This document shows, piece after piece, positions 25,064-38,865 of a DNA stretch of 48,182 nucleotides (positions are counted from its first letter, which is position 1; each line of letters begins with the position of its first letter). The notes below the pieces were generated by a model. That model had not been told where the DNA came from and ran no database searches. It saw nothing but the letters and a program-made list of their open reading frames with translations. This stretch comes from Candidatus Uhrbacteria bacterium RIFCSPLOWO2_01_FULL_47_25 (GTDB lineage Bacteria > Patescibacteriota > Patescibacteriia > GWA2-46-9): the NCBI GenBank assembly GCA_001791325.1, contig MGEK01000006.1:1-48182 (forward strand), read 5' to 3'. The position numbers were made by a program, and so were the translations under genes.

Positions 25064-26395
25064 ATGCCACCAGGAGAACGCGGAGGATACAACCCCGAAC
25101 AGCTTATTCCTTCGGAGCCGACACAGCCAAAGGACATTCTTGCGGAACTTGACGCACAATCAGTAGAGATCAAAAAGCGTCGTTCCTTGAAGATCACTCG
25201 TCCTTCTAATGTTCGTGGTCCTGAACGAAAAGTTGACGCTAAACGTCCCGAGCAGGAACGCAACCTCATTGTACGTTTTGAGCGTGAAGAAATATTACGT
25301 ATCTATAAATTATTACGAGAAAAAGGGGCGCACGCGGGCAAATCCTCTGAAGGGAAGCCCTCAGAATTATTAAAACGATTCCGTGAACGCGCGAAGCAGC
25401 TAGAGCGCAACCTTGACCTTTTGAGTGAACAATTATACAAGAACGTTCGTCCCGTGCAGATTGAAGACGCAGATATTGGCCAACACGTTGTTCCGGTGGC
25501 TGAGCTTTGTTTACCGGATGATCAACGCGAACGAACCGATAAGGACACTCCTTATGTTACGCTCGCTGGTATTGCGACAAATCATCACCAACAGGCCGCT
25601 CTGGCTATGGCCATGGCTTTGCAAGGGAAGCGAGTGTTCGCGATGACGCATCCAGGAAATGCTCTCGCCAAGACGCCAAAAGATTGGGCAAAACATGTTC
25701 GCCAGGATGGAACCTATCGGCTTCAGGCGAAAGTTCTTCAAGAAGCTGTGAAGAAACTTGGGCTCAAAGAGTTTCACATGGTTGGGTACTCAATGGGTGC
25801 TAGCGTTGCCCTTAAAGCAGCGCGCGATCCGGAGTTTAGCCGCGCCGCTAAAGAGATCGACCTTATTGAACCATTGGGCTTTGAAAATCTCGGGCTGGCT
25901 CGTTTGGGGTACCGCTTTTTAGGCAAAGAAACAGTTGGCGTCATGCGCGATCCCGAATCAAAGCTAAAAGCATTTTTATCGGGGAACAAGACGACCGGGC
26001 TCCCCGGCGGGCCGTTTATAGCCGATGCTTTTGCTTTGAGTAAAGAACAGTTTACAGTTAGAGAGCTCGCCGAACTCCGGCCGGAAGGGAAGTTGCGCAT
26101 CTGGACGATGAGTCAGAGTACTCTCGTGGATGTTGCCGCAGTACGAGGGAAGATTGCCGCCGCGAACGAGCTGCGCGAAGGCGCTACCGCCAATCACCCG
26201 ATAGAATTTTATACCGTCGAGGGTGATACCCATTCGACGCCACTTATCCATGCCAACGGGTTTGCAAGTATGTTGGAACATGGTCCTGGGGTTCCTTCGG
26301 GCGATGAAGTAAGTATAGCCCAGCTAGATAATTCTGCGGCGCGAGCATTATTTAGGGGGGTCGTCGACGCTGAGTCTAGGAAGGAGAGAATTTGA
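25064..26395 (+). CDS. Alpha/beta hydrolase-fold protein
   Basis: 443 residues. The N-terminal ~90 residues are polar and basic; a helical segment follows ('FEREEILRIYKLLREKG...LLKRFRERAKQLERNLDLLSEQLY'). From ~150 on an alpha/beta hydrolase is visible: 'VTLAGIATNHHQQAALAMAMALQGKRVFAMTHPGNA', a nucleophile elbow GYSMGAS with Ser243, and a C-terminal 'GDTHSTPLIHANGF' that offers the His. An acidic partner is not obvious. The substrate is unknown (an ester or peptide hydrolase is possible). Its long charged N-terminus resembles that of the neighbouring kinase, so both may be tethered or processed alike. Confidence 0.75.
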   Translation: MPPGERGGYNPEQLIPSEPTQPKDILAELDAQSVEIKKRRSLKITRPSNVRGPERKVDAKRPEQERNLIVRFEREEILRIYKLLREKGAHAGKSSEGKPSELLKRFRERAKQLERNLDLLSEQLYKNVRPVQIEDADIGQHVVPVAELCLPDDQRERTDKDTPYVTLAGIATNHHQQAALAMAMALQGKRVFAMTHPGNALAKTPKDWAKHVRQDGTYRLQAKVLQEAVKKLGLKEFHMVGYSMGASVALKAARDPEFSRAAKEIDLIEPLGFENLGLARLGYRFLGKETVGVMRDPESKLKAFLSGNKTTGLPGGPFIADAFALSKEQFTVRELAELRPEGKLRIWTMSQSTLVDVAAVRGKIAAANELREGATANHPIEFYTVEGDTHSTPLIHANGFASMLEHGPGVPSGDEVSIAQLDNSAARALFRGVVDAESRKERI

Positions 26396-35806: not shown

Positions 35807-35868
35807 GCTGCATATTTTGTTCTTTGATTTATATTCCGGGGTAGCTCAGTGGTAGAGCAGGTGACTGT

Positions 35869-36494
35869 GAACGTATCCGCGGTATACTTTTTATATGCCG
35901 AAACGGAGAACATATGCTGACCGTCGAGAGTACATAAAGGCGGCCGTGGCCAAGCGACGCAAGAAGATTAAAGTCATGGCTGTTGAGTACCTTGGTGGAG
36001 CGTGTCATATTTGTGGTTATAAACGCGCAATAGTAGCTCTTGATTTTCACCACTTGGATAAACATCATAAAGATTTTGCTGTTTCTCAAGATGGATTAAC
36101 AAGAGCTTGGAGTCGTGTGAGTTCAGAGTTAGATAAATGCGTTTTATTGTGCGCGAATTGTCACAGAGAAGTACATGCTGGTGTAATCGCAGCCCCGCGT
36201 AGGAATGCGCGGAGAAAAACTGGGTGAATTCGGGGAAGCCCAGCCCCACTTTTTGATAAGATGCCACCAGTAGATAAATAATTGTGTATTTATTTGCTGA
36301 CGTTAGTACTAGTCATTATCGGTTTTGTCAGAAAGTGGGGCTGGGTAATCCCGAGCCAATACCTGACGGGTAAAAGTGTCAGGAAAGGTGTAGAGACTAG
36401 CGGGTGAGTCCCAACGATAATCCCGCCACGAGCGCCCAGCGCCTAGAACAGGCGATGAGATAGTCCGTCCCTATTGGTAACAGTAGGATAAACG
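35869..36494 (+). ncRNA. Group I self-splicing intron in the tRNA anticodon
   Basis: 626 nt. Exon ACTGT can pair with GCGGT (35879-35883) to form P1 with a U-G pair at the splice site. The core is readable: P-like segment after 36226, long P5 arms (GCCCAGCCCCACTTT near 36238 with AGTGGGGCTGGG near 36333), Q-like GTAATCCCGAGCC, R with GACTA (36395-36399) pairing S TAGTC (36461-36465) as P7, P8 GCCT-AGAACA-GGC, and P9 CTATTG-gtaa-CAGTAG. An extra GCGGG/CCCGC stem follows P7. The last base is G36494. An HNH gene occupies the 5' part. Confidence 0.88.
35895..36227 (+). CDS. Intron-encoded HNH homing endonuclease
   Basis: 110 residues. The basic N-terminus (MPKRRTYADRREYIKAAVAKRRKK) leads to an HNH core: 'CHICGYKRAIVALDFHHLDKHHKDFAVS' with the His pair, and 'CVLLCANCHREVHAG' with the second Cys pair and terminal His. 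Such enzymes cut intronless alleles and drive intron homing. Here the target would be an uninterrupted tRNA-Asn gene. The gene lies between P1 and the catalytic core; its stop overlaps the P segment. It starts 27 nt into the intron. Confidence 0.88.
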   Translation: MPKRRTYADRREYIKAAVAKRRKKIKVMAVEYLGGACHICGYKRAIVALDFHHLDKHHKDFAVSQDGLTRAWSRVSSELDKCVLLCANCHREVHAGVIAAPRRNARRKTG

Positions 36495-36535
36495 TAATCA
36501 CTTGGTCGTGGGTTCGAGTCCCACCCCCGGAGCCA

Positions 36536-36572
36536 TCAAAAAACTTCTGCCATCTCGGCAGAAGTTTTTTGA
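36536..36572 (+). terminator. Intrinsic terminator after tRNA-Asn
   Basis: A perfect 16-bp stem (left arm TCAAAAAACTTCTGCC) with a 5-nt loop ends in TTTTTTGA. It begins right after the CCA end. Confidence 0.9.
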
Positions 36573-36987
36573 TATTTCAGAGGTGCGGGTTGGAACTCGA
36601 ACGGGCAGAAGTGAGCGGCGATGAGTAGCGGAAGCTGCGACGAGCCAAGTGAATGTCGATAAGTCTGAGCGAGCGCAAGACTTAGCGCTGCCCAAGGCAG
36701 AGTGCGGAGTCGGTCTGCTGCCGATAAAGCACGTCGGAAGTCCCACCCCCCGAGCATTGATTGAGATCGAGTCATGAGTTTATCGAAGGGCTCGATTTCT
36801 GTTTTACTTGTCCTGAGTCTTATCGAAGGATTCACTGGGTTTTTTTGCGGTTTCCTGCCCGCCGAAGCCCTCACCTTGTCGCGAAGCCCTCGGCGAAGCG
36901 CAGGTCGGCGCAGGCGGGGAACCGAGAGTGGAGAGAGTCTCTTTTTTCTTCTCCCACGAGCCGGTAGTTGTATTATATAACTCCTTT
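36573..36987. other. Gene-free segment with repeat debris and a tRNA 3'-end look-alike
   Basis: No convincing gene. At 36739-36756 a sequence AGTCCCACCCCCCGAGCA nearly repeats the 3' end of tRNA-Asn. AAGTCT..AGACTT (36660-36682) is a hairpin. TTGTCCTGAGTCTTATCGAA (about 36818) and the GCCCGCCGAAGC-rich stretch (36857-36920) are palindromic repeat types that recur at 44486-44600. Short open frames here are repeat-encoded. Confidence 0.5.
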
Positions 36988-37449
36988 ATGTTAATATATG
37001 AACTGGAGATGACCTTTAAAGTATTTTCGGGTAACAATATTGCTAAATATATGAGTAGAAAATCTGGTTTTAAACTAACAAAAGAACACAAAAGAAGCAT
37101 AAGCGCAGGGATGAAGCGTGCTTGGGAAAAATCTGTTGGAGGGACAGGGGCAGCCTCTCTTGAGAAGTACGGATTTCTTATAAAAGACAGGAAGCAGATA
37201 AGGAAAGAGGTAATAAAAATGCTTGGTGGAAAATGTAAAAGATGCAACTTTTCTGATATTCGCGCCCTTCAAATAGATCACGTAAATGGGAATGGGAGCA
37301 AGGAAGTTAAGTCGTTTTATGGTGGAAACAAAACAATGCAGAGATATATCTTCACGGGACGACTTCCGAAAGAAAATTATCAGATTTTGTGTGCTAATTG
37401 TAACTGGATTAAGAGACACGAGAACAAAGAGTTTACGCAACCCAAGTAA
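36988..37449 (+). CDS. Free-standing HNH endonuclease with NUMOD3-like motif
   Basis: About 153 residues. 'KLTKEHKRSISAGMKRAWEK' resembles a NUMOD3 DNA-binding motif of homing enzymes. The nuclease core is 'CKRCNFSDIRALQIDHVNGNG' and 'YQILCANCNWIKRHENK', a Cys4 HNH with the DH pair. The start could be ATG 36988, 37009 or 37051; the frame continues upstream to 36928, but that part is repeat DNA. Its position just after the intron-bearing tRNA hints at a shared homing origin, although the two HNH proteins are only distantly alike. Confidence 0.78.
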   Translation: MLIYELEMTFKVFSGNNIAKYMSRKSGFKLTKEHKRSISAGMKRAWEKSVGGTGAASLEKYGFLIKDRKQIRKEVIKMLGGKCKRCNFSDIRALQIDHVNGNGSKEVKSFYGGNKTMQRYIFTGRLPKENYQILCANCNWIKRHENKEFTQPK

Positions 37450-37472
37450 GGTTACTTCCAGTATAAATATGG

Positions 37473-37539
37473 ACCCCGTTAGATATTTGCGGGGTAAAAC
37501 AGGTAAAAAACAAAAAATTATGATGATATCTAATGGGGT
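37473..37539 (+). repeat. ACCCCGTTAGATAT inverted-repeat element at the abiEi start
   Basis: ACCCCGTTAGATAT (37473-37486) and ATATCTAATGGGGT (37526-37539) form 14-bp inverted arms with one mismatch around a 39-bp middle. The right arm overlaps codons 3-7 of abiEi (ISNGV). Related arms are at 39245 and 45773. Confidence 0.7.
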
Positions 37540-38173
37540 GGATAAAAAACCTACAAAGGGCGAATACTTGGATATCTTGTTAAGATCTCCCAAAACCGTC
37601 TTTTCAACCAAAGATGTTGCTTTATTGTGGGTTGAAGAAAGAGAAAATACGGTCAGTGCTAGATTAAATAAATATGCTAAGGCCGGAAAGTTGATTAGAG
37701 TTCGTCGCGGCTTGTATGCCAAAGACAAAAATTACGACAAGTTTGAGTTGGCGACAAGAATCTATACTCCCTCATATATCAGCTTTGAGACCGTTTTGAC
37801 CCGGGCTGGGATTAACTTTCAGTATTACAGCAACATCTTTGTTGCGTCTTATGTTTCGAGAGAAGTAGAAATAGACGGCCAAAAATTTACATTTGTGAGA
37901 ATGAAAAGTTATGTTTTGTCGAATACCGACGGCATTGACCACAAAGCCGGCCATGCCATTGCTACAAAAGAGCGGGCCTTTTTAGACAGAATCTATGTAA
38001 GCAAGGATTATCACTTTGATAATTTGGATTCTTTGGATTGGGATGCGATTTTTCGGATTTTACCCATTTATAACAACAAAAGGATGGCAAAGAGAGTTAA
38101 CGCATATTTTAAACATTATTCCGCAGAAGGCGGATCCGCCTCTGGCGGAAAAAATTCCAATTCAAACATATGA
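37520..38173 (+). CDS. AbiEi-like antitoxin (type IV toxin-antitoxin)
   Basis: 217 residues from ATG 37520 (ATG 37469 or 37523 are alternatives). An N-terminal winged helix ('GEYLDILLRSPKTVFSTKDVALLWVEERENTVSARLNKYAKAGKLIRVRRGLYA') is followed by the AbiEi domain ('YISFETVLTRAGINFQY', 'ERAFLDRIYVSKDYHFDNLDSLDW'). AbiEi antitoxins bind DNA and counter the AbiEii nucleotidyltransferase. It overlaps the toxin gene by 4 bp (ATGA). The C-terminus (GGSASGGKNSNSNI) is encoded by a GGCGGA/TCCGCC hairpin repeat (about 38130-38150) and is probably an acquired tail. Confidence 0.87.
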   Translation: MMISNGVDKKPTKGEYLDILLRSPKTVFSTKDVALLWVEERENTVSARLNKYAKAGKLIRVRRGLYAKDKNYDKFELATRIYTPSYISFETVLTRAGINFQYYSNIFVASYVSREVEIDGQKFTFVRMKSYVLSNTDGIDHKAGHAIATKERAFLDRIYVSKDYHFDNLDSLDWDAIFRILPIYNNKRMAKRVNAYFKHYSAEGGSASGGKNSNSNI

Positions 38174-38865
38174 CCTTAGATTATTCGATACATAAAAACA
38201 TACAGCTTCAGATTCTCAAAGAAATATATACCGACACGACGATTGCTCCGCACCTCGGTTTTAAGGGTGGGACAGCAGCCCTTATGTTTTATGACTTGAA
38301 CCGATTTTCGGTTGACCTTGATTTTGATCTTTTGGATGAAAGCAAAGAGAAAAAGGTATTTGAGAAAATTTTAGAGATTGCCAAAGGATACGGGGATATA
38401 CGAGAATCGCGGATTAAGCGCTACAACTTAATAATAATTCTTTCCTACGACATCAAGGCTCAAAATGTAAAAATCGAAATCAATCGCAGAGAGTTTGGTT
38501 CTCGATACGAGCTCAAAACCCTGCTTGGCATTTCCATGCTTGTAATGATCCGCGAAGATATGTTTGCCAACAAGCTTATGGCAATGTATGAGCGGGTCGG
38601 CAAAACGAGCCGGGATGTTTTTGACGTATATTTCTTTGCGAAAAATAACTGGCCGATTAACAAAGAGATCGTAGAAAAAAGAGCCGGCATGCCTTATAGG
38701 AAAACGGTAGGAAAATGCATTGAGCTTTTAGAGAAGATGAACAATCGGAACATCTTAGATGGTCTTGGCGATTTCTTGACCGAAAGCCAAAAAGATTGGG
38801 CCCGGGCAAAACTCCGTACGGAAACAATTTTTCTATTAAACGCTCGCCTTGAAAGCGAAATATGA
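38170..38865 (+). CDS. AbiEii-like nucleotidyltransferase toxin
   Basis: 231 residues. 'LGFKGGTAALMFYDLNRFSVDLDFDLLDE' contains the GG-T and D-x-D nucleotidyltransferase motif of AbiEii/AbiGii toxins. 'SRDVFDVYFFAKNNWPINKEIVEKR' is the conserved C-terminal helix region. The family modifies tRNA or other acceptors with nucleotides and causes abortive infection or growth arrest. It starts in the ATGA overlap with the antitoxin, giving the canonical antitoxin-toxin order. Length is slightly short of typical AbiEii but the core is complete. Confidence 0.87.
   Translation: MTLDYSIHKNIQLQILKEIYTDTTIAPHLGFKGGTAALMFYDLNRFSVDLDFDLLDESKEKKVFEKILEIAKGYGDIRESRIKRYNLIIILSYDIKAQNVKIEINRREFGSRYELKTLLGISMLVMIREDMFANKLMAMYERVGKTSRDVFDVYFFAKNNWPINKEIVEKRAGMPYRKTVGKCIELLEKMNNRNILDGLGDFLTESQKDWARAKLRTETIFLLNARLESEI

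Follow-up and report, generated by a model that had tools for sequence, protein, structure and literature searches.

The tRNA-Asn(GUU) gene at positions 35835–36535 of the window is interrupted after U35, inside the anticodon, by 626 nt that very likely represent a mobile group I intron with an HNH endonuclease gene in its P1 loop; our reading of its splicing and homing, of the separate expression of the endonuclease and of its capture draws on sequence comparison throughout. The window is the whole stretch of DNA analysed, 48,182 nt from Candidatus Uhrbacteria bacterium RIFCSPLOWO2_01_FULL_47_25 (contig MGEK01000006.1), and the parts of the split gene described below lie on its forward strand. 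The intron is an element of a known kind and is common in its bacterial group.

A tRNA-Asn gene split within the anticodon

The 5′ exon (35835–35868) ends in ...GACTGT, corresponding to ...C32 U33 G34 U35, and the 3′ exon (36495–36535; TAATCACT...CCA) starts with U36 A37 A38 and includes the discriminator G73 and an encoded CCA end. Between them lies the intron (35869–36494; GAACG...AAACG). When the exons were joined, ARAGORN returned a perfect 75-nt tRNA-Asn(GUU), and the cloverleaf with the GUU anticodon and G73 was obtained once the insert was removed. With introns allowed, the program called [35835,36535] with an intron at position 35, i(35,626); with introns disallowed, no tRNA was called at 35835–36535. 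A sequence-only reading of the window had proposed precisely these boundaries, an insert separating anticodon bases 35 and 36, and a perfect tRNA-Asn upon its removal, all of which were borne out. Comparison with an intronless relative gave the same answer, as the exons are identical at 75 of 75 positions to the uninterrupted tRNA-Asn gene of a genome from the same class (G136). The same insertion is found in G001, an independently assembled Uhrbacteria genome of the same genus and the nearest relative in the genome collection, and it is thus not an assembly artefact. Immediately downstream, a 16-bp inverted repeat with a terminal T-run (36536–36572), read directly from the sequence and absent from the consensus scan list, is likely the terminator of the tRNA transcript. 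The following intergenic segment (36576–36860) contains repeated TTATCGAAGG and TCGAAGG motifs and resembles dispersed repeats of environmental bacteria.

The source genome (G000) comprises 1.2 Mb in 40 contigs and is scored as 100% complete. Apart from the split gene, the remaining 19 amino acids are accounted for by 48 further matches to ordinary tRNA genes; neither the covariance model nor a DNA search found a second tRNA-Asn in the 40 contigs. The sequence-only reading had left open whether this was the only such gene, and the genome-wide count gave one. With no tRNA-Asn other than the intron-split gene found in a genome scored as complete, the reading of asparagine codons very probably requires the intron to be spliced out. 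Two further observations concern the tRNA set of the same genome. A tRNA-Ile(UAU) is present and only two tRNAs have a CAU anticodon (L001, L019, L039), which suggests that AUA is decoded without a tRNA-Ile(CAU), and a tRNA-like gene with a CUA anticodon (L007, 1801–1893), labelled Pyl by ARAGORN and unlisted by the tRNA covariance search, is probably a spurious call.

Ribozyme core and internal guide sequence

The Rfam model RF00028 matched positions 36133–36487 with 69.8 bits (E 8.6e-16; gathering score 50 bits), and the helices of the match covary, in agreement with the initial assignment as a group I intron. In an alignment of 34 homologous intron cores, standard pairs occupied 91.6% of the cells across 47 pairs of P2–P9, 304 cells were double-changed compared to 95 after shuffling, and the covariation score was 0.506, compared to at most 0.114 when one strand was slid. 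All six pairs of the P2 hairpin (36194–36213) showed changes on both sides. In P3, CUGGGUG (36220–36226) pairs with CGCCCAG (36433–36439), with 95% of cells paired and three pairs double-changed, while the 5′ strand of P4 (36229–36234) pairs with 36350–36355, with 98% of cells paired and double changes in five of six pairs. P5 carries a long peripheral extension (36238–36346) and has 15 bp at its base. The same alignment and pair count placed the P6a (36362–36383), P8 (36440–36454) and P9 (36470–36487, GUAA loop) hairpins. The previously noted P7 pairing was recovered between GACUA (36395–36399) and UAGUC (36461–36465), invariant in 34 of 34 cores.

The expected U at the 5′ splice site and G at the intron end were likewise confirmed: U35868 pairs with G36189 as a U·G pair, and the last intron base is omega-G 36494. 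A P1 pairing also exists and could be located far better than by eye; its guide does not lie by the 5′ end of the intron. A candidate there (GCGGU, 35879–35883) was rejected, as the conserved GCAG sits behind the HNH gene and, in relatives lacking an open reading frame, near the splice site. P1 is instead formed by the exon sequence CUGU (35865–35868), which includes U35, and the internal guide sequence GCAG (36189–36192), past the endonuclease domain and invariant in the 34 aligned tRNA-Asn introns. The guide mostly lies 5–48 nt past the splice site in ORF-less introns and approximately 300–360 nt past it, directly behind the endonuclease domain, in HNH-bearing ones; the HNH gene thus fills the P1 loop (L1, 35869–36188), which spans 320 nt in the window. 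GCAG is unable to covary within tRNA-Asn because its target is constant, and the placement of the guide is supported by sister introns in tRNA-Phe, where exon and guide vary together (GGACU/GGUCC and GGCCU/GGGCC). In the window P1 is limited to four base pairs, because A31 faces C36193.

The HNH endonuclease

That the insert carries an HNH gene was also part of the initial reading. The gene (35895–36227) encodes a protein of 110 amino acids matching PHROG 2255 (HNH; E 3.4e-29), with an HNH motif and paired CxxC zinc ligands; the invariant residues C37, C40, H52, H53, C86, N88, C89 and H90 support the assignment. Scores against Pfam and NCBIfam were below the cut-offs (PF01844: 17.2 bits, cut-off 21.4, with three of six family members above it). 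The predicted structure was of fair quality (pLDDT 82.5), and its best PDB matches were HNH nucleases, albeit weak at E ~0.1.

The reading frame extends across the guide, the P2 hairpin and the 5′ strand of P3, so that the final 13 codons also form part of the ribozyme core. Compared to the copy from the same genus, the gene shows a dN of 0.20 and a dS of 2.29 (dN/dS ~0.09), indicating that the protein is under purifying selection. In the first 97 codons synonymous sites are saturated (pS 0.81, pN 0.18), and in the last 13, a small number of codons, pS is only 0.17.

A second, free-standing HNH open reading frame of 173 amino acids (36928–37449; phrog_2255, E 1.9e-10) is located approximately 390 nt downstream of the tRNA-Asn gene, just before an AbiEi/AbiEii-like toxin-antitoxin pair (37286–38865).

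A promoter-like box and a hairpin over the start codon

The sequence preceding the HNH gene contains the hexamer TATACT (35883–35888), a putative intronic promoter element ending 6 nt before the ATG, and a hairpin (35877–35906) in which the start codon is paired (leader fold −8.3 kcal/mol). Among 29 non-redundant leaders, 15 had a TATAAT-like hexamer, often TGNTATAAT, 3–12 nt before the start codon, compared to an expectation of 2.5 in shuffled leaders, and none of 1000 shuffles reached 15. The box is missing from about half of the leaders, and some introns from Omnitrophota have ribosome binding sites resembling GGAGGTGA in its place. Leader folding averaged −8.9 kcal/mol, versus −4.8 kcal/mol after shuffling, and the start codon was usually paired. 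Box and hairpin are retained in two (L064 and L080) of the three copies in which the HNH gene lies outside the tRNA-Asn intron; because the element stays with the gene there, it probably does not belong to the ribozyme. The first strand of the hairpin would be missing from a transcript that begins at the box.

The arrangement resembles that of the I-TevI gene in the phage T4 td intron. There the initiation region is masked in the long transcript and becomes accessible when transcription starts from a promoter within the intron, and ribosomes that translate into the core impair splicing (PMC2988022). Features that would be shared are an internal promoter, putative here, a hairpin over the initiation region of long transcripts and an open reading frame whose end enters the core (PMC2988022). 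In contrast, I-TevI is a GIY-YIG enzyme in a protein-coding host gene, and it is the ribosome binding site that is hidden there, whereas here it is the start codon itself. By this analogy, and from the signs seen in about half of the leaders, we infer a possible I-TevI-like control of HNH expression.

Distribution of the insertion site and of the intron family

Searches with the HNH protein identified 51 relatives in the genome collection, most of them inside a tRNA gene. The insertion had initially been considered unusual, which did not hold: including the window, 87 distinct introns follow U35 of tRNA-Asn(GUU), mostly in Patescibacteria/CPR. Group I introns were found in 165 of 381 genomes of the class, and among the 109 high-scoring ones whose hosts were examined, 51 interrupt tRNA-Asn, 25 tRNA-Phe (after U33) and 20 rRNA, with a few in other tRNAs. 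U35 of tRNA-Asn is thus a standard intron position in the class and no rarity.

The HNH protein is patchily distributed (44 of 381 genomes of the phylum), intronless relatives occur within the same family and class, and the same site is occupied in Omnitrophota and Nitrospirota. The introns of the window and of the same-genus genome group closest to each other in core as well as HNH protein, and some relatives have broken HNH frames. The signs of a mobile intron, namely the same site in distant hosts, patchy presence and an intact endonuclease, are all present.

Some host assignments had to be revised. ARAGORN placed many HNH-bearing relatives in tRNA-Thr(UGU) and others in tRNA-Met; these calls are slips at the same tRNA-Asn site. 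The Thr(UGU) calls reflect a two-base slip, in which CT/GTG...G/TGTAA can also be cut as CTGT/G...GTG/TAA (slashes marking the splice boundaries); G73 and agreement with the U and G rules identify these hosts as tRNA-Asn. An apparent host from Burkholderiales (L071) was also rejected. Its HNH protein is nearly identical to one from a lake-sediment bin (L074) and groups with that of a Nomurabacteria genome (L062), and the contig is likely misbinned.

Introns at other sites were also noted. The 16S rRNA gene of the source genome is split by a second group I intron (L048; G000:C19, about 25731–26360), which follows ...CUCUGU and adjoins GCCAGCAGC, at about E. coli position 516. The guide of this intron, GCAGAG, also targets CUGU, and the 16S and tRNA-Asn sites therefore share a target core. 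Three further introns (L192, L236, L241) follow U35 of a tRNA with a long variable arm that reads as tRNA-Tyr(GUA), labelled tRNA-Ser by ARAGORN, and have the same CUGU target.

Free-standing relatives of the endonuclease

Not all HNH relatives reside within introns. In three cases (L064, L080 and L092) the gene lies just outside a tRNA-Asn gene with an ORF-less intron, in two (L095 and L096) it adjoins an intact tRNA-Asn gene, and in five (L099, L100, L101, L102 and L105) it is found near a tRNA-Arg gene. In the last group, from Chloroflexota and Planctomycetota, the neighbour is a tRNA-Arg(YCU) within about 500 nt on the opposite strand.

The nearest phage relatives share about 52% identity over 98 residues and are located in tRNA arrays. 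A tRNA gene was found within 300 nt of the HNH gene in 11 of 13 phage records sampled. HNH genes in phage tRNA arrays are generally not rare, and this count, which covers relatives of the intron protein alone, lends support short of proof. In four phages (Vibrio PC-Liy1, Klebsiella KP13-7, Aeromonas 4_4572 and Listeria LPML1) the neighbour is a tRNA-Asn gene. The phage genes (Felixounavirus, KVP40-like and others) thus resemble the intron-borne ones in protein similarity and tRNA adjacency, but are free-standing, and the neighbouring phage tRNA genes contain no intron. The intron exists in ORF-less and HNH-bearing forms, and a minimum of 12 switches between them is required on the tree of intron cores, which has many weak branches.

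Capture of a free-standing endonuclease by an ORF-less intron is a route previously proposed from phage systems (PMC3984707). The copies outside the intron, the tRNA-adjacent phage relatives and the at least 12 state changes suggest that a free-standing endonuclease pre-adapted to tRNA genes was captured by an ORF-less tRNA-Asn intron.

Discussion

In the mechanism we favour, exogenous guanosine would attack after U35, following the known mechanism of the family, and the exon U would then attack after omega-G 36494, joining the exons as tRNA-Asn and releasing the intron. The HNH protein would cut tRNA-Asn genes that lack the intron, with the break at the anticodon, and the intron would be copied in during repair, resulting in homing. 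The box before the start codon may give a separate short HNH mRNA, while in the long tRNA precursor the hairpin may hide the start codon and keep ribosomes off the folding ribozyme, as for T4 I-TevI. The endonuclease itself would originate from a free-standing lineage homing into tRNA genes and would have been taken up by an ORF-less tRNA-Asn intron.

Other explanations were weighed against this mechanism. The position in the anticodon loop is all that would suggest a protein-spliced intron of archaeal type, or some other insertion; such archaeal and eukaryotic tRNA introns are short, have a bulge-helix-bulge motif and lack a ribozyme, whereas the 626-nt insert contains a group I core scoring 69.8 bits with covarying helices, a finding that refutes this reading for all practical purposes. 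It is also highly unlikely that the split gene is a dead pseudogene and that asparagine codons are read by another tRNA-Asn missing from the assembly. A gap between the 40 contigs might conceal such a gene, but the completeness score and the presence of tRNAs for every other amino acid speak against it, as do exons that match an intronless tRNA-Asn at every position, a complete and covarying core and the same arrangement in the same-genus genome.

More weight can be given to the view that the intron splices but is immobile, being inherited vertically with an HNH protein that is a relic or acts only as a maturase. The nearest-neighbour relationship of the window and same-genus introns in both core and HNH protein would fit this view, as would the broken frames of some relatives. 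Against it stand the low dN/dS and the invariant catalytic residues, a scattered occurrence in which members of the same family and class lack the intron, the gains or losses of HNH on the core tree, 12 at the least, and the shared site in Omnitrophota and Nitrospirota, making immobility rather improbable. A comparably low probability applies to the proposal that the start hairpin and the TATAAT-like box belong to the P1–P2 region of the ribozyme and not to a regulatory cassette of the HNH gene. They lie near the 5′ splice site, and the hairpin is stable in the window; however, ORF-less introns lack the element and mostly have their guide within 48 nt of the splice site, and the element precedes the HNH gene also where that gene lies outside the intron (L064, L080).

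With the mobile intron and its HNH cassette as the preferred reading, the element can be compared to known systems. Previously known bacterial group I introns in tRNA genes occupy other tRNAs and positions and usually lack an endonuclease. The endonuclease of the cyanobacterial tRNA-fMet intron is of the PD-(D/E)XK type, whereas the one described here belongs to the HNH type. According to reviews, bacterial tRNA introns of this class come from cyanobacteria and proteobacteria (PMC4033280; PMC8450103) and, as here, are group I introns in anticodon loops. The tRNA-fMet intron with its anticodon-specific endonuclease (Biniszkiewicz 1994; Bonocora and Shub 2001; as cited in PMC3984707 and PMC8450103) is, going by these citing accounts, similar in being self-splicing, in its anticodon-loop position and in an endonuclease aimed at the anticodon region, and differs in tRNA and phylum. 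Within the CPR, rRNA group I introns carry LAGLIDADG endonucleases, in a text that mentions neither tRNA nor HNH (PMC11270868); these share the bacterial radiation, the ribozyme class and the presence of homing endonucleases, and differ in having rRNA hosts and LAGLIDADG proteins. A methods paper on circularised, mostly CPR, genomes states that some of their tRNAs contain group I introns (PMC8172020), and a 2025 preprint by Nakagawa et al. (cited in PMC12641178) announces in its title a novel tRNA insertion site in Patescibacteria; judged by that title alone, it probably covers the U35 site of tRNA-Asn. No published description was found of a P1 loop occupied by an HNH gene that runs into the core, of the proposed promoter and hairpin cassette or of a relationship to phage HNH genes associated with tRNAs, the comparison to Nakagawa et al. 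2025 being by title only.

The split gene would mean that an essential single-copy tRNA relies on a selfish ribozyme within a reduced genome. It also affects annotation, as a default tRNA scan overlooks the gene and makes such genomes seem to lack tRNA-Asn, and ARAGORN with introns allowed mislabels many such genes as tRNA-Thr(UGU) through the sliding boundary.

A more far-reaching scenario is that one HNH lineage specialised on tRNA genes, found in phage arrays and beside chromosomal tRNA-Asn and tRNA-Arg genes, was captured as a cassette with its promoter and start hairpin into the P1 loop, made an ORF-less tRNA-Asn intron mobile and spread with it across CPR, Omnitrophota and Nitrospirota. 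We advance this scenario tentatively, with slightly less than even confidence. If it is true, the HNH gene beside an intronless tRNA-Asn, beside an intron-bearing one and inside the intron would be surviving stages of the process, and would make the endonuclease-capture origin of mobile introns directly testable in cellular tRNA genes. Steps by which homing endonucleases and introns may become associated can be seen side by side in this intron family.
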